A stretch of DNA of 64,000 nt from Anaerolineae bacterium (GTDB lineage Bacteria; Chloroflexota; Anaerolineae; Promineifilales; Promineifilaceae), in NCBI GenBank assembly GCA_007123775.1, contig SLGK01000061.1:1-64000 (forward strand). Reading direction: 5' to 3'. How positions within the stretch are numbered: position 1 is the stretch's first letter; every line of letters starts with the position of its first letter. A model generated the notes under the pieces. It made no database searches. It was not told the origin of the DNA and saw only the letters and a program-made list of their open reading frames with translations. Shown piece after piece: positions 9,146-63,074 of the stretch. A program made the translations under genes and the position numbers.

Positions 9146-9203
9146 TCAGGTGGTCAGGTAGTCGAGTAGTCAGGTGGTCAGGTAGTCGAGTGGTCTGGTG
9201 GTC
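9127..9203. repeat. 8-bp phased repeat (GTCAGGTA/GTCGAGTA)
   Basis: agtcaggtagtcgagtagtcaggtggtcaggtagtcgag...; overlaps the last codons and stop of the preceding CDS. Confidence 0.85.
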
Positions 9204-9298
9204 ACTTCGCCACTCCGCCACTTCGCCACTCCGCCACTTCGCCACTCCGCCACTTCGCCACTCCGCCACTCCGCCACTTCGCCACTCTGCCACTTGCC
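9204..9298. repeat. 8-bp phased repeat (CACTTCGC/CACTCCGC)
   Basis: cacttcgccactccgccacttcgccactccgc..., about 11 units. Confidence 0.85.
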
Positions 9299-9341
9299 AC
9301 CTGGCCCATTTTTTGTTAGCATTCTCCCAACAATTTAATAC

Positions 9342-10830: not shown

Positions 10831-10928
10831 AAAGCGGTTACGCGGAGATTCGCAGAGAACACGCGGAGGTTCGCGGAGAAAAGCAGAGAAGATGAGCGAG
10901 GCTTTTCGTAATTCATAATTCGTAATTT

Positions 10929-11069
10929 GGCATGGTTCAAGTCAGCTTGACAATTCACTGACCGAGGACGGAGGACGAAAGACCGATAACCAGAGCAATT
11001 CCGTCCTTCGTCTTCGGTCCTCCGTCAAAATTTGTAAAGTTGGCTGCCAAGTAGCAGTGAACCATGCCC
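10929..11069. mobile_element. MITE-like element, copy A
   Basis: Termini ggcatggttca...tgaaccatgccc; flanked by gtaattt at 10922-10928 and 11070-11076; internal inverted heptamer arms (gaggacg family). Second copy inverted at 53071-53237. Confidence 0.8.
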
Positions 11070-11085
11070 GTAATTTGGAGGCGTA

Positions 11086-12513: not shown

Positions 12514-12573
12514 CATAAAAGGACGGGTCGCTGATCCGTCCTTCGTCTTCCGTCCTCCGTCCCGTATCAACCA
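12507..12573. repeat. Heptamer-phased inverted element between convergent genes
   Basis: tggttgacata...cgtcctt cgtcttc cgtcctc cgtcccg...tatcaacca. Confidence 0.7.
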
Positions 12574-17246: not shown

Positions 17247-17360
17247 GGCTCTTTGGGAACTCAGGGGATTGACAAACCGTTATGCGTAAAACGTAACCAG
17301 AGAGACCTTACGCATTACGCTTTACGTTTTACGCCAAACCCCACGAAATCCCGAAGACCC
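17247..17360. mobile_element. MITE-like element, family 2 copy 1
   Basis: Flanked by 8-bp direct repeat aaaaaaga (17239-17246, 17361-17368); imperfect TIRs ggctctttgggaactc / gggtcttcgggatttc; heptamer core; near-identical copy at 41424-41534. Confidence 0.75.
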
Positions 17361-18180: not shown

Positions 18181-18185
18181 GGGAG

Positions 18186-18246
18186 CAAAGTGGCGAAGTG
18201 GCGAGGTGGCAGAGCAGCGCAGTTACCTCGCCACTCCGCCACTTCG

Positions 18247-18250
<4 letters not shown>
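18186..18250. repeat. 8-bp phased inverted repeat (GTGGCGAA family)
   Basis: aagtggcgaagtggcgaggtggc...cctcgccactccgccacttcgc. Confidence 0.75.
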
Positions 18251-19488
<1,238 letters not shown>

Positions 19489-26971: not shown

Positions 26972-26979
26972 TCGGTTTT

Positions 26980-27012
26980 AAACCTGCGAGGTCTCGCTGA
27001 CCTCGCAGGTTT
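26980..27012. terminator. Perfect 14-bp hairpin, terminator-like
   Basis: aaacctgcgaggtc-tcgct-gacctcgcaggttt; near-identical hairpin at 41546-41576. Confidence 0.65.
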
Positions 27013-39552: not shown

Positions 39553-39600
39553 TGCGTAGAAAGATAACTACGCCGCCACTCCGCCACCTCGCCGCTCCGC
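39535..39600. repeat. Heptamer (GTGCGTA) plus 8-bp (CCACTCCG) repeat spacer
   Basis: gtagtgcgtaatgcgtagtgcgtag...cgccgccactccgccacctcgccgctccgctcc; supplies the rarA stop codon. Confidence 0.75.
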
Positions 39601-39708
39601 TCCATTTTTAACCCCGGTTAACTTCCAACCCATCACCCGTTAATTTTCAACTGCACACTCGTCAAATTCCGGTTATACGCCGGTGCATTTCTAAGTTAAC
39701 GCCTGGGC

Positions 39709-41423: not shown

Positions 41424-41534
41424 GGCTCCTTGGGAATTCAGGGGGTTGACAAGCCGTAATGCGTAAAACGTAAAACGTAACCAGAGAGACTTTACGCATT
41501 ACGCATTACGTTTTACGCCAAACCCCGCGAAATC
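41424..41534. repeat. Family 2 MITE-like element, copy 2
   Basis: ggctccttgggaattcagggggttgacaagccgtaatgcgtaaaacgtaaaacgtaaccagagagactttacgcattacgcattacgttttacgccaaaccccgcgaaatc, matches 17247-17350 with few changes. Confidence 0.8.
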
Positions 41535-41545
41535 AAAACCTTCTA

Positions 41546-41576
41546 AACCTGCGAGGTCTCCGAGACCTCGCAGGTT
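41546..41576. terminator. Hairpin, terminator-like
   Basis: aacctgcgaggtct-ccg-agacctcgcaggtt. Confidence 0.6.
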
Positions 41577-45662: not shown

Positions 45663-45792
45663 CTGAGTAGTTGCCTAATCCGCTCCTTCCCCCAATCCGT
45701 TGTTCTCTTTGAATAAATGCTGAAAAACAACGGCCGTTTCCTCCCCCAATCCCCCGTTCCATGATAGAATACTTGTTCGATTACGATTCACT

Positions 45793-45824
45793 TCATAATT
45801 CATCCTTCGTAATTCATAATTCGA
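45793..45824. repeat. Heptamer repeat CATAATT/CGTAATT
   Basis: cataattcatccttcgtaattcataattcg. Confidence 0.8.
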
Positions 45825-45831
45825 GGAAACC

Positions 45832-47913
45832 ATGACCAACCGACCCTTTGCGATTGCGTCCGACTTTCAGCCTACCGGCGACCAGCCCCAGGCTATTGCT
45901 AAATTATTAGAAGGATTAGAGCGCGGCGACCCCCTACAAACCCTGGAAGGAGCCACCGGCACCGGCAAAACCTTCACCATCGCCCACGTCGTTGAGCGCA
46001 CCCAGCGGCCGGCGCTGGTGCTGGCCCATAACAAGACCCTCGCCGCCCAACTCTATTCCGAGTTCCGCGAATTCTTCCCCAAAAACGCGGTCTCCTACTT
46101 CGTCAGCTACTACGACTACTACCAGCCCGAAGCCTACGTACCCCGCCACGACCTGTTCATCGAAAAAGAGACCCAGATCAACGAAGAGATCGACCGGCTG
46201 CGCCTGCAAACGATGGCCAACCTGATGAGCCGTCGCGACGTGATTATCGTCGCCTCCGTCTCCTGTATTTACGGTATCGGTAATCCGCAGGCATGGGGCA
46301 AAGTGACCGTCAAAATTGAGCGGGGAACCCCCTACCGGCGCGACCTGCTGCTGCGTCACCTGGTCGATATTCAGTACGACCGCAACGACCTGGAACTGCG
46401 GCGCGGCGTCTTCCGCGTGCGCGGCGACACGCTGCAAATCTTCCCCGCCTACAACGAAAAGACCGCCTACAGCGTTGAGTTTTGGGGCGACGAGGTAGAG
46501 CGTATCACCGAATTCAACCCGCTCACCGGCGAGATTGAGCTGGAACACGCCAGCCTGGAAATCTTCCCCGCCCGCCAGTTTATCACCGACGAGGAGAAGC
46601 TGGCCCAGGCCATCAACGACATCGAGAATGAACTCAACGAGCGCATCGCCTACTTCAAAGAGCGCAACATGCTGCTAGAAGCGCAGCGCATCGAACAGCG
46701 CACCCTCTACGACCTGGAGATGCTGCGCGAAGTCGGCTTCACCTCCGGCATCGAAAATTACAGCCGCCACCTGGATCAGCGCGAGGAAGGATCGCCCCCC
46801 TGGACGCTGCTCGACTACTTCCCGGCCGACTATTTGATGATTATCGACGAGAGCCACATGACCATCCCCCAGGTGCGGGGCATGTTTGCCGGCGACCGCA
46901 GCCGCAAACAAACGCTGGTCGATTATGGCTTCCGCCTGCCCAGCGCGTTGGACAACCGGCCGCTCGATTTTGAAGAATTTGAGCAGCGGTTGGGGCAGGC
47001 CATCTGTACCAGCGCCACGCCCGGCCCCTATGAACTGGAAAAGTCGAGCCAGATTGTGCCCCAGGTGATACGGCCGACCGGCATCATTGATCCCGAAGTA
47101 GAAGTGCGCCCCGTGCGCGGCCAGGTGGACGACCTGTTAGCCGAAATCAAGCGGCGCACCGAAGTAGGCCAGCGTGTCCTCGTCACCACCCTGACCAAGC
47201 GCATGGCCGAAGATTTGAGTGACTATCTGCTGGAAATGGGGGTCAAGGTCCACTACCTCCATTCCGAAGTCCACACCATCGAGCGCACCGAAATTTTGCG
47301 CGACTTACGCCTGGGTGTCTTTGATGTGGTGGTGGGCATCAACCTGCTGCGCGAAGGGCTGGACCTGCCCGAAGTGTCGCTGGTAGCCATTTTGGATGCT
47401 GACAAAGAGGGCTTTTTGCGTTCGGAAACGTCACTCATCCAGACGGTGGGCCGGGCGGCTCGCCACATCGAGGGCAAGGTCATCATGTATGCCGACAAGG
47501 TGACGCGCTCCATGCAGGCGGCCCTGGACAAAACCAAAGAACGGCGCGAGCGGCAGATGGCCTACAATCAGGAACACGGCATTGAGCCGCGCAGTATCTT
47601 GAAGCGCATTCGGGACCTGACGGATGATATTGCCGAGATGCGGCAGCAGGAAGCGCTGGCTATTGCGGAGGAACAGGCAGCTTACGCGGTGAAAACGGCC
47701 GTTCTCCCCCCCGATGAATTACGCCACATGATCGCCGAATTGGAGGCCCAAATGAAAGAAGCCGCCCAAAACCTGGAATTTGAGACAGCGGCTGTTTTGC
47801 GCGACGAAATCATGAACCTGAAACAAACGCTGGCCCTCAAAGAGGCCGGCGGCAATGAGGATATGCCCGAATGGGAGCGGCAGCGGCTGTTAGACGCGGC
47901 CGGTATTGGCTAG
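45832..47913 (+). CDS. uvrB: Excinuclease ABC subunit B
   Basis: [19 protein letters not shown]...[17 protein letters not shown]...[12 protein letters not shown]...C-terminal UVR motif. Confidence 0.97.
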
Positions 47914-51780: not shown

Positions 51781-53058
51781 ATGGAGAATGAACTGGACCA
51801 TTTGACAGGCCAACGGCCGTTTCACCTGCTGACCCTCGCCGCTGATTCTAAGGCCGGACTGCGAGAAGCGGCCCGACAACGCTACCAGCAGATCAGCCAG
51901 AACAATACCACCCTGGCTGCCGTCAGCCAGTCGCTACGCCGGGAAAACGGCCGTTCGTCAGCACCCTGGCGCGCAGCAGCCGTTGCCGCAGATCCGGCCG
52001 AAGCCCTGGCCCACCTGGAGGCCTGGCAGCAACAAGACGCCCTCTTGTGGCAAATCACGGCTCCCGCCCCACCGCGGTTGGCCTTCCTCTTTACCGGCCA
52101 CGGTGCCCAATACGCGGGCATGGGACACAATCTTTACCAGACCGCCCCCGTCTTTCGCCAGGCAATGGAGGAGTGCGAAAAAGCTTTACGGCCGTTTCTC
52201 AACCATTCCCTCTATGACATCCTCTACCATCCCGACCACGCGCCTCGCCTGCTCAACAGCATGACCCACGCTCAGGCCGCCTTGTTTGCCCTGGCCTATG
52301 GCCTGACCAGGGTTTGGCACAGTCTGGGGGTGCAGCCAGCCGCCGTCATGGGTCACAGCCTGGGCGAATACGTCGCCGCAGCCGTGGCCGGTGTCTTTAG
52401 CCTGACCGATGCCGCCAGGCTCATAGCCACCCGCAGCCGACTCATGGACGCCATTACCGAAACGGGCCAGATGGCCGTCATCTTTGCCGAAGAAGCGTTA
52501 GTGGCCCAGGCCATTGCACCCTTTGCCGACGAGGTAGCCATTGCCGTCATTAACGGAGAGGCTAACGTGGTCATATCAGGGCGAGAAACGGCCGTGCAAA
52601 CCATCCTCGACCGGCTCAAAAAGGAGCGCGTCCGCTCTCGCCGTCTGGACGTGGCCCAGGCCGCCCATTCACCCCTGCTCGATCCCGTTCTGTCAGAATT
52701 TGAAGCCGTTGCCGCCACTATCCAATACCACGACCCGGACCCTCGTCTGACCTACATCTCTACCGTGACCGGCCGGCCGGTTGCGCCTGGCGAAGTAACC
52801 AACGCCGTCTACTGGCGACGCCATCTGCGCCAGCCGGTTCGCTTTGCCGATGCGATGCAGTCGCTCTATGCAACCGGACACACCCACTTTCTGGAAATCG
52901 GTCCCCAGCCTACGCTGCTGGGCATGGGCAAACGCTGCCTGCCGGCTGACGTTGGCCACTGGCTGCCCTCGCTTGAGAAGGATAAGGAAAATTGGCAAGT
53001 CTTGCTGGACAGCGCAGCGACGCTCTACTGCCAGGGAATAGCCATCACCGAATCGTGA
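51781..53058 (+). CDS. PKS-type acyltransferase (KS-AT linker + AT)
   Basis: QRPFHLLTLAADSKAGLREAARQRY linker; FTGHGAQYAGMGHNLY...MGHSLGEYVAAAVAG; ends ATLYCQGIAITES. Confidence 0.85.
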   Translation: MENELDHLTGQRPFHLLTLAADSKAGLREAARQRYQQISQNNTTLAAVSQSLRRENGRSSAPWRAAAVAADPAEALAHLEAWQQQDALLWQITAPAPPRLAFLFTGHGAQYAGMGHNLYQTAPVFRQAMEECEKALRPFLNHSLYDILYHPDHAPRLLNSMTHAQAALFALAYGLTRVWHSLGVQPAAVMGHSLGEYVAAAVAGVFSLTDAARLIATRSRLMDAITETGQMAVIFAEEALVAQAIAPFADEVAIAVINGEANVVISGRETAVQTILDRLKKERVRSRRLDVAQAAHSPLLDPVLSEFEAVAATIQYHDPDPRLTYISTVTGRPVAPGEVTNAVYWRRHLRQPVRFADAMQSLYATGHTHFLEIGPQPTLLGMGKRCLPADVGHWLPSLEKDKENWQVLLDSAATLYCQGIAITES

Positions 53059-53070
53059 TGAAAAACATTT

Positions 53071-53237
53071 GGCATGGTTCACTGCTTTCTGGCAGCCAAC
53101 TTTACAGATTTTGACGGAGGACCGAAGACGAAGGACGGAGTTGCTTTTAGCCTATCGACCCATCGCTTTGTCCGGCCATCGGTCTTTCGTCCTCCGTCCT
53201 CGGTCAGTGAATTGTCAAGCTGACTTGAACCATACCC
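53071..53237. mobile_element. MITE-like element, copy B
   Basis: Reverse complement closely matches 10929-11069; flanked by aacattt at 53064-53070 and 53238-53244. Confidence 0.82.
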
Positions 53238-53264
53238 AACATTTACAGGTAAACAAATGAAAAC

Positions 53265-54260
53265 ATGGAAATAGCGACATTGACCAATAACCCCGTCCCA
53301 ATTGCCCTGATGTTTACCGGCCAGGGAGCCCAATATCCGGGGATGGGCCGCCAACTGTATGAGCGCAATGAGACGTACCGTACTGCCTTAAATAGCTGTG
53401 ATGACTATTTACGGCCGTTTCTGCCCCGCCCCCTCCTAGACATCCTCTTTGCTGAGGATGAAGCCACCGCTAATCTGGTCCATGAGACGGCTTATACCCA
53501 GCCCGTACTCTTTAGCGTGGAATATGCGCTGGCCCAGGTCTGGCTGGCCTGGGGGCTGCGGCCGGCCGTGGTCATGGGCCACAGCGTGGGTGAGTATGTG
53601 GCCGCTACCATAGCCGGTGTCTTTAGTCTGGCCGATGGGCTAAAGCTGATTGCCGAACGGGGCCGCCAGATGCAGGCCCTGCCCTCCGGCGGCAGCATGG
53701 CGGCCGTATTTGCCGATGAAGCACGAGTAGCGGCGGCGATTGCGCCTTATGCCAACGAGGTCTCGATTGCGGCCATTAACGGGCCGACCAATGTCGTGAT
53801 TTCAGGGGCGGGTACGGCCGTGGCCACCATCCTGGCCAAGTTGAAAGAAGCGGGCATCCGTGCCCGCGCGCTGGTCGTCTCCCACGCCTTCCACTCGCCG
53901 CTGATGGCCCCCATGCTCGACAGTTTCGAAGCGGTGGCCCGCACTGTGACCTACCATCCACCTCAAACACCGCTTATCTCTAACGTTACGGGGCAGGTAG
54001 CGGATGATCGGGTGCAAACGGCCGTTTACTGGCGTGACCATGTGCGCGACGCAGTTCGCTTCGCCGATGCCCTGCAAACCGCCCACCAGATGGGCATCGA
54101 CCACTTCCTGGAAGCCGGCCCCAACCCGGTCCTGATTGGCATGGGTAAACGGATTTTACCGCGTGGTATAGGGGTCTGGCTGCCCTCTCTCAAAGAAGGC
54201 AGCGACGATGAAGCGATGTTGGCGGAGAGCCGGGCGGTGTTGGCGGCAAGCGATGCGTAG
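53265..54260 (+). CDS. PKS-type acyltransferase (AT only)
   Basis: FTGQGAQYPGMGRQLYE...MGHSVGEYVAATIAG...VSHAFHSPLMAPM. Confidence 0.87.
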   Translation: MEIATLTNNPVPIALMFTGQGAQYPGMGRQLYERNETYRTALNSCDDYLRPFLPRPLLDILFAEDEATANLVHETAYTQPVLFSVEYALAQVWLAWGLRPAVVMGHSVGEYVAATIAGVFSLADGLKLIAERGRQMQALPSGGSMAAVFADEARVAAAIAPYANEVSIAAINGPTNVVISGAGTAVATILAKLKEAGIRARALVVSHAFHSPLMAPMLDSFEAVARTVTYHPPQTPLISNVTGQVADDRVQTAVYWRDHVRDAVRFADALQTAHQMGIDHFLEAGPNPVLIGMGKRILPRGIGVWLPSLKEGSDDEAMLAESRAVLAASDA

Positions 54261-59628: not shown

Positions 59629-60696
59629 ATGAAACTGAGTACAGAGTTCTTCTCAAGATTAGTTGGGGCCATTGCGCTCGCTTTTGCTGCTGCCGCTTTG
59701 GGCGATGCTCTCGCCAACTACCTGGGTGCTAATAATGAGGCATATGTTATCGTTTTTGTTCTGTTAGGCATCTTAACAGGTCTGGTGTTAACACCCTATT
59801 TGACGGTACGGCCGTTGCGCCGCTTGCGTCAACGTCTAACCAATATGCCGCCTGAGCAGCTAATGGCTATCATTATCGGCATTTTCTTGGGCCTGATTGC
59901 GGCCGCGCTCATTTCGCTACCGTTGGCTATGCTGCCTTCCCCTTTTCGGGAGATTTTGCCGTTAACGGCCGTTGTCGTTTTCTGCTACCTTAGCACCGCC
60001 ATCTTGATGCTGCGCCAGCGTGACCTGAAAAACATGCTAAGCAACCTGCAGCCATTGGGACAAACCACACGTAGGGGTTCTGGGGCTGAACTCAGCGCTA
60101 AAGAAGACGAATCCGTCATTTTGCTGGATACGAGTGTGATCATAGACGGCCGTATTGCCGACATTAGCAAAACCGGTTTTATCCAGGCCAGTCTGCTGGT
60201 TCCCAACTTTGTTCTCATGGAGCTACAACATATCGCCGACAGTGCCGATCCCCTGCGCCGCAATCGCGGTCGGCGCGGTCTGGATGTGTTGACCATCCTG
60301 CAAAACGAAGCCCCCGTGCCCACCCGTATCACCGATATGGATGTTAGTGAAACACGCGAAGTGGACAGCAAGCTCGTCTCTCTGGCTCGCCATTGGCAGT
60401 GTCCTATCATGACCAATGACTACAACCTCAACCGAGTGGCTGAAATCCAGGGCGTGCGCGTCCTCAACATCAACGACCTGGCCAACGCCGTCAAAGCCGC
60501 CTACTTACCCGGCGAAGAGCTAACCGTTAAAGTAATACAAGAAGGACGCGAAGCTGATCAGGGCGTCGGCTATTTAGAAGATGGCACAATGGTCGTCATT
60601 GAAGAAGGGGAGTACCTGATCAATCAAACGGTCACTGTCACCGTCACCAAAGTGCTGCAAACCACCGCCGGCCGCATGATCTTCGCCAAACCGTAA
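59629..60696 (+). CDS. PIN/TRAM-domain membrane protein (YacL-like)
   Basis: N-terminal TM helices; ILLDTSVIIDGRIADISKTGFI...RRGLDVL...IMTNDYNLNRVAEIQGV; C-terminal TRAM-like. Confidence 0.92.
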   Translation: MKLSTEFFSRLVGAIALAFAAAALGDALANYLGANNEAYVIVFVLLGILTGLVLTPYLTVRPLRRLRQRLTNMPPEQLMAIIIGIFLGLIAAALISLPLAMLPSPFREILPLTAVVVFCYLSTAILMLRQRDLKNMLSNLQPLGQTTRRGSGAELSAKEDESVILLDTSVIIDGRIADISKTGFIQASLLVPNFVLMELQHIADSADPLRRNRGRRGLDVLTILQNEAPVPTRITDMDVSETREVDSKLVSLARHWQCPIMTNDYNLNRVAEIQGVRVLNINDLANAVKAAYLPGEELTVKVIQEGREADQGVGYLEDGTMVVIEEGEYLINQTVTVTVTKVLQTTAGRMIFAKP

Positions 60697-60787
60697 AACG
60701 TAAAACGTGATGCGTGATGCGTGAATAAAAGACCTCACGTATCACGCATCACGTTTCGTAATTCGTAATTTGTAATTCATAATTCGG
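60692..60787. repeat. Heptamer-phased repeats (CGTAAAA/CGTGATG and CGTAATT)
   Basis: cgtaaaacgtaaaacgtgatgcgtgatgcgtg...cacgtatcacgcatcacgtttcgtaattcgtaatttgtaattcataattcg. Confidence 0.85.
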
Positions 60788-60794
60788 AAAGCCC

Positions 60795-62240
60795 ATGTCT
60801 CTAAAAGTCTACAACTTCCTCACTCGACAAAAAGAAACCTTTACGCCGCTGCACGAGGGCAAAGTCAGCCTGTACGTTTGCGGCCCCACGGTCTATGACA
60901 ACTCGCACATCGGCCACGCCAAAACGTATGTCAACTTCGACGTGATCGCCCGCTACCTGCGCTACCTCGGCTACGACGTGCTGTACGTGCAAAACATCAC
61001 CGACGTGGGCCACATGCTCGATACCGGCGAAGACAAGGTACTGCGTAAGGCCCGTCAGATGTCAGCCCTGCCCATGCAGGTGGTTGAGACCTACACCCGC
61101 AGCTACTTTGCCGATATGGACGCCCTCGGCGTGCAGCGGCCCGACATCAGCCCCCGCGCCAGCGGCCATATCCCTGAACAGATCGAGATGATCCAGACCC
61201 TCATTGACAAAGGCCATGCCTACGAGGTGGATGGCTCGGTCTACTTCGACGTCGCTTCTTTTCCTGAGTATGGCAAACTAAGCGGCCGTACCGTCGACGA
61301 TCAGGCAGAAGGCAGCCGCATTACCACTCGCGAAGAAAAACGCCATCCGGCCGACTTTGCCCTCTGGAAAAAGGCCGACCCCGAACACATTATGCGCTGG
61401 CCTAGTCCCTGGGGCGAAGGTTTTCCCGGCTGGCATATCGAATGTTCGGCCATGGCCAACAAATATCTCGGCCCCACCTTTGACATTCACGGCGGCGGCC
61501 TGGAGAATATGTTCCCCCACAACGAGTGTGAAATCGCCCAGAGCGAAGCCGCCCACGACGGCCAGCCCTTTGCCCGCCACTGGCTCCTCGTCGGCAGCCT
61601 GACGCTGGACGGCATCAAAATGAGCAAGAGTCTGGGCAATACGCTGACGATTGCCGATGCGCTGACTCGCTGGCCGGCCGAAGGCATTCGCACCTTTATC
61701 CTTTCCAGCCATTACGGCAGCCCCATTGATTTCTCTGACGAAGCGATTGAGGCAGCTTATAAAGGCTGGCAGCGCATTTGGGGTGCGGCCCGCCTGCTGC
61801 GCCAGCAAATGGGCCAGGCCCCGGACGGCGCGGCTGGTGACGCCGTTAAGGAACTGGTTGAGCAAACGCGGAAGGCCTTCGTAGAGAAGATGAACGATGA
61901 TTTTAACGCCCCCGCCGCGCTGGCCGTCCTGCAGGAATACACGCGCCAGGTCAATACGCTGGTCAACGAGCAGGGGTCGCTGAGCCAGGGTTCGCTCAAG
62001 GCACTCGATGACCTGTACCGGGAATTGGGTGGCAAGATTCTAGGCATTATTCCCGGCGAAGACGCCGGCAGCGCCAGCGCCGAGCGCGAGGCCGGTCTGG
62101 TACAACTTCTCATCGAGCTGCGGGCCGCGGCGCGGGCCAACAAGGATTGGGCCACCTCCGACAAAATCCGAGACCAGCTCAAAGAATTGGGCATCATCCT
62201 CGAAGACCGGCCCGACGGCACCGTCTGGAAAACAACTTGA
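60795..62240 (+). CDS. cysS: Cysteinyl-tRNA synthetase
   Basis: [26 protein letters not shown]...[14 protein letters not shown]...[12 protein letters not shown]. Confidence 0.97.
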
Positions 62241-62245
62241 TGCTG

Positions 62246-62309
62246 CGAAGTGGCGATGTGGCGAAGTTACCTTACAACTTCGCCACATCGCCACTCCGCC
62301 ACTTCGCCA
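62246..62309. repeat. 8-bp phased inverted repeat (GAAGTGGC / ACTTCGCC)
   Basis: gaagtggcgatgtggcgaagtt...aacttcgccacatcgccactccgccacttcgcc; abuts the next start codon. Confidence 0.82.
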
Positions 62310-63074
62310 ATGAGTGAGTATCTGATTCGACGCAATGTGGTTTTGGAAGCGCTGCGGGGCAGCCGGCGGGAGGTGTTCCGGCTCTACGTGCAGCAGGGGT
62401 TGGCGCAGAAATATGTGGAGGATGTGGTGGATACGGCCGTATCCCGCCACGTCCCTATCACCCATCTCAGCAAACAAAAGCTGGGCCAACTGGTGCAAGA
62501 CAGCAGCCACCAGGGCGTGGCCCTGGAAGTTGGCCCCTACGTCTACAGCGACATTCAGGCCATGCTCTCCCTGGCGGCTGCCCACCAGGAACCGCCCCTG
62601 CTGCTCCTGCTTGACCTGCTGCACGGACCGCAAAATATCGGTAGCCTGCTGCGAACGGCCGAAATTTGCGGCGTCCACGGCGTTATCTTGCAAGACCGGC
62701 GCGCCCCTGACATTACCCCTAGCGTGGTCCAATATTCGGCCGGGGCCGCTGAGCATCTGCTCATTGCCCAAGAGACCAATCTGGTCCAGGCCATCAGGCA
62801 GTTGCAAGCGGCCGACGTCTGGGTGGCTGGCCTCGACCTTACCGACGAGTCCCAACCGCTGGGCGAAATTGACCTCAACATGCCCCTGGCCATCGTGGTG
62901 GGTCATGAAGGGCAAGGGCTGCGCCGGCTGGTGGGTGAAAGCTGCGACTTTTTGATCCGGCTGCCCATGCGCGGTCATGTAGAATCGTTGAATGCGGCCG
63001 TAGCCGGGTCGGTGATGCTCTATCAGGCGTGGCAGGCGCGGGGGTTTGTGGGCGATAGGGCACAAGGATCGTAG
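62310..63074 (+). CDS. SpoU/TrmH-family RNA 2'-O-methyltransferase (RlmB-like)
   Basis: MSEYLIRRNVVLEALRGSRREVFRLYV...LLDLLHGPQNIGSLLRTAEICG...IVVGHEGQGLRRLV...RLPMRGHVESLNAAVAGSVMLYQ. Confidence 0.95.
   Translation: MSEYLIRRNVVLEALRGSRREVFRLYVQQGLAQKYVEDVVDTAVSRHVPITHLSKQKLGQLVQDSSHQGVALEVGPYVYSDIQAMLSLAAAHQEPPLLLLLDLLHGPQNIGSLLRTAEICGVHGVILQDRRAPDITPSVVQYSAGAAEHLLIAQETNLVQAIRQLQAADVWVAGLDLTDESQPLGEIDLNMPLAIVVGHEGQGLRRLVGESCDFLIRLPMRGHVESLNAAVAGSVMLYQAWQARGFVGDRAQGS

Follow-up and report, generated by a model that had tools for sequence, protein, structure and literature searches.

A multi-copy non-coding element of an Anaerolineae genome, very probably a MITE with 8-bp target-site duplications

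Two inverted copies in the window

Within the window, which is the whole 64,000-nucleotide stretch of DNA analysed here, a palindromic sequence separates two genes for acyltransferases and recurs in inverted form at a distant site. What is this sequence, and how did it reach both places? The first of these copies, copy B, is 166 bp long (53071-53236, minus strand; A end at 53236 and B end at 53071), and its neighbours at 51781-53058 and 53265-54260 both match Acyl_transf_1 (PF00698; E 8e-68 and 2e-56), in agreement with the gene context given in the earlier note. Copy A has the modal length of 140 bp (10929-11068, plus strand) and lies between a gene for a Cys/Met-metabolism enzyme and one for an amino-acid kinase with ACT domains. 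The two copies are in opposite orientation, share an identical stretch of 50 bases (0 matches expected by chance) and are 93% alike in their arms, which confirms that copy B is the same element as copy A, inverted.

Both ends of the element open with GGYATGGTTCA and thus form terminal inverted repeats of the kind that defines a MITE. The A end of copy B (53213-53236, minus strand) consists of GGTATGGTTCA and the inner box AGCTTGACA at an offset of 4, and its B end (53071-53106, plus strand) of GGCATGGTTCA, a 16-nt spacer and the inner box AACTTTACA. In all 34 two-ended copies of this genome, the offset of the inner box (AGCTTGACA or AACTTTACA) is 4 bases at the A end and 15-16 at the B end. 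This displacement of the box by 10-12 bp from one end to the other corresponds to about one helix turn and may reflect the way in which a transposase binds them. Copy A is flanked by exact duplicates of CGTAATTT (10921-10928 and 11069-11076). Copy B is flanked on the plus strand by AAACATTT (53063-53070) and CAACATTT (53237-53244), which read AAATGTTG and AAATGTTT when the A end is placed on the left and match at 7 of 8 positions; the duplication of copy B, once described as 7 bp, is therefore corrected to 8 bp with a single mismatch.

Between its ends, copy B carries two hairpin arms of GACSRAR heptamers (53113-53141, plus strand; 53179-53205, minus strand) around a variable loop (53142-53178, minus strand), which holds one 16-bp-type unit and about 10 bp beyond the 140-bp form. 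These two pieces account for the 26 bp by which copy B exceeds copy A, and both are present in many other copies. The loops thus differ in length, as had been noted, but they are not unrelated in sequence: they can be aligned, and it is the number of tandem repeats that varies.

Copies, insertion sites and interiors across the genome

A DNA search of the assembly (5.59 Mb, 344 contigs) gave 43 matches and, with end patterns added, 53 copies or part-copies, 34 of which have both ends. The terminal pattern itself has 51 forward and 51 reverse matches, against 2 and 3 for a reversed control pattern; several copies are truncated, and the single-ended matches are truncated copies or contig edges. 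Two-ended copies are 129-238 bp long (140 bp in 15 copies, 150 bp in 5 and 166 bp in 4, the rest being singles). The element is therefore small, non-coding and multi-copy, as a MITE should be. Pairwise identity among the copies averages 89% (range 80-99%), indicating that most insertions are not recent. Nearly all copies are intergenic, often with an ORF within tens of bases, and the genes beside them have every orientation; some copies have a gene ending at them on either side. By eye, one truncated copy (L057, about 1700-1840; G000:C14) runs into a Fur-like gene, where the GGAGG of its arm lies 7 nt upstream of the ATG, and the element seems to provide the ribosome-binding site.

Flanking duplications of 5 to 12 bp were sought in the 34 two-ended copies, with right flanks dealt at random in 2000 trials as the control. 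At 8 bp the duplication is exact in 18 copies and has at most one mismatch in 23, compared with means of 0.5 exact and 0.9 near-exact (maxima 4 and 5) for the permuted flanks, and no exact duplication was seen at 5-7 or 9-12 bp in any of the 34. The duplication is thus of constant length, a further property of MITEs, and this length is 8 bp. As to whether 7-bp flanks are always duplicated, the duplication is of 8 bp and is present in 18 (exact) to 23 (near-exact) of the 34 copies. The duplicated 8-mers have 31% GC compared with 54% in the flanks, and display a symmetrical, AT-rich palindromic preference, SAAWWTTS. About 11 of the 34 copies are without a duplication. Such copies had been named beforehand as a sign against transposition; they do exist, but are outweighed by the 23 that have a duplication. 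Together with the truncated copies they fit ageing MITEs, as expected, and decay and recombination also give rise to copies of this sort.

Alignment of the interiors reveals a constant backbone of 140 bp to which are added 0-4 copies of a 16-bp unit, GATGGCCAGGAAAAGC, and shorter GATRGGCC-like units, the extra units of longer copies sitting at the tip of the hairpin; a 24-bp insert, ACTTCGACAAGCTCAGTGCAAGCT, is present in three of the copies. As to whether the loops are always divergent, the copies share this backbone, on which variation proceeds by repeat units. Most simply, 16-bp and 8-bp units would be gained and lost at the tip by replication slippage. The interior as a whole is a long hairpin of purine-rich GACSRAR heptamers, the predicted stem of which is long and stable (single-strand DNA fold z-score of -4.5). 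Arrays of GACSRAR heptamers without element ends are present at 12521-12562 of the window and at L026:1176-1322, one of them adjoining a small hairpin, and the arms of the element may derive from such arrays.

Related ends in other Chloroflexota and the search for a transposase

The ends (GGCATGGTTCA with the inner AGCTTGACA box) recur with different interiors in other Chloroflexota. Among genomes of the same family (the relatives surveyed included none of the same genus), the A-end pattern with at most 2 mismatches has 133 matches in G013, 7 in G030 and 1 each in a few others. Exact end matches in a public genome set come from 'Ca. Aquidulcis', one Ardenticatenaceae genome and one Anaerolineae genome; the Ardenticatenaceae locus (L091) is identical in reading to a locus of G014 (L072), by which the window's family is assigned to Chloroflexota. 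Of 399 genomes sampled across the phylum, 4 besides this one have the A end, all belonging to family f40, and one 16-base stretch shared with f40 is the sole interior match between the elements of this genome and the others. Inner-box offsets of 4 and 14-16 are also seen in Ca. Aquidulcis (11/11), G013 (8/11) and f40 (5/9), and the G014 elements mostly have the long spacing at both ends. The 11 complete copies of Ca. Aquidulcis are identical over 182 bp and have exact 8-bp duplications in every case, which points to a recent burst. For 7 of the 9 f40 elements the duplication is instead only 3 bp long, TAA or TTA.

It is conceivable, if rather doubtful, that one ancient pair of ends, with the inner box shifted by about one helix turn at one of them, is common to Chloroflexota MITEs whose interiors are unrelated, and that it serves for duplications of both 8 bp and 3 bp (TAA). 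If so, the shared pair would mark an undescribed transposase lineage in which the stagger of the cut changed and the recognition of the ends was kept, and the two lengths would allow a test of how a transposase alters its cut stagger. Near-identical ends with 3-bp TAA/TTA duplications, in contrast to the 8 bp found elsewhere, are seen at L148, L151, L154 and L156-L158 (G100, G301 and G365), where the elements often abut each other as GCC-TAA-GGC. Related elements stand head-to-tail together with their flanks in G013 (C165:16654-17021, L083/L086; C50:7703-8406, L141) and G030 (C165, L081/L084), an arrangement that suggests tandem duplication after insertion.

The search for an autonomous element bounded by these ends was negative in the genome itself and its relatives, all of them draft assemblies, which drop repeats. 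In this genome and several relatives, none of the PF01609, PF12762, PF03400 and PF01610 transposases is bounded by GGYATGGTTCA, a set that covers DDE_Tnp_1, IS1595, IS1 and ISL3. PF12762 (DDE_Tnp_IS1595) is absent from the draft assemblies of this genome (G000) and of G013, the genome with 133 A-end matches, and its matches in the draft of Ca. Aquidulcis are without these ends. Relatives of Ca. Aquidulcis, plasmids and viral contigs yielded no autonomous partner. Two Ca. Aquidulcis contigs (L124 and L133) break off after the first 53 bases of a B end unlike that of the MITE, which suggests a longer element collapsed in, and so missing from, the draft.

A transposed element and its alternatives

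Very probably, the element is a non-coding MITE moved in trans by a putative DDE-type transposase and inserted at 8-bp staggered AT-rich sites. What the sequences show directly is the set of copies with their ends and duplications, the preferred target and the intergenic placement; the enzyme, the class to which it belongs and the way it cuts are inferred. Supplied in trans, the transposase would bind at either end to the outer GGCATGGTTCA and the inner AGCTTGACA-like box, cut a palindromic AT-rich target (SAAWWTTS) with a stagger of 8 bp and insert the element there; filling of the gaps would then produce the 8-bp duplication. Transposition, as the earlier note proposed, is upheld by the excess of 8-bp duplications over permuted flanks, the conserved ends, the dispersed intergenic sites and the Ca. 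Aquidulcis set. The element resembles MITEAba12, which is 111-114 bp long, has 9-bp duplications and has ISAba12 as its parent (PMC6382973), in being short, non-coding, trans-mobilised and flanked by inverted ends and constant-length duplications in AT-rich DNA. It differs in its 8-bp duplications, length variation by internal repeats and asymmetrical ends, and in that no parent was found for it.

The strong predicted fold (z-score of -4.5) would also suit a retained regulatory RNA or 5′-UTR element with its structure under selection, whatever first spread it, and some truncated copies do lead straight into a gene, as with the GGAGG 7 nt before the ATG at L057. However, most of the paired columns do not vary at all, changes on both sides of a pair are nearly absent and the covariation term is about 0.5 of -40 kcal/mol; since the stem columns barely vary, there is no covariation to support a selected RNA. 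Moreover, no Rfam family was matched, -10-like boxes point toward the element no oftener than away from it, and the neighbouring genes lie in all orientations, some ending at the element on both sides, so that this explanation is improbable and a conserved RNA was rejected for want of compensatory change and of an Rfam match. Being short, palindromic, intergenic and present in many copies, the element also resembles a REP/BIME-type palindrome moved by a RAYT (Y1 HUH transposase), but the GTAG or CGTC tags of large REP families (PMC3733652) are absent here, the ends being GGCATGG. The clean 8-bp duplications also contradict this origin, for which there is hardly any chance. HUH transposition is not expected to leave such duplications.

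Within the MITE reading, a narrower and unlikely version assigns the element to the IS1595/Merlin kind. The terminal GG and the 8-bp duplications agree with that family, which has 5′-GG ends and 8-bp duplications (PMC8101967), the likeness being limited to these two traits, and the contig stops at L124 and L133 resemble a collapsed multi-copy IS. Against it, the draft assemblies of this genome and G013 have no PF12762 transposase, those of Ca. Aquidulcis are without these ends, and no transposase is linked to the ends of the element. Duplications of 8 bp are also made by IS6, IS256, IS66 and part of IS5. Targeting of promoters, considered on account of TATAAT-like boxes seen by eye beside many copies, was rejected: boxes facing the element are about as numerous as those facing away, both counts fall in the range of the shuffles, and the impression arises because the target is AT-rich.

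No paper describing these elements was found in the literature searched, and as far as that search goes the MITE family is new, its kind being well known. For Chloroflexota this means an additional MITE family, whose diagnostic end sequence might help to track down the transposase; what makes the family interesting is that the asymmetrical ends are shared, that the search for their transposase was negative and that there are two duplication lengths.

The window holds other repeats as well. Octamer arrays of CGCCACTT/CGCCACTC occupy 9187-9318, 18185-18251, 39553-39612 and 62260-62327, and dispersed CGTAAAACGTAAAACG-type repeats are found at 17247-17350 and 41424-41534 and at 141-180 and 60688-60724. 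A 36-bp palindrome, AACCTGCGAGGTCTC..GACCTCGCAGGTT, is present in two copies (26976-27012 and 41541-41576). Degenerate GTAATTCGTAATTC arrays stand at 10908-10928, 45792-45834 and 60755-60797, two of them directly before a start codon, and similar arrays also flank several insertions of the element elsewhere in the genome.
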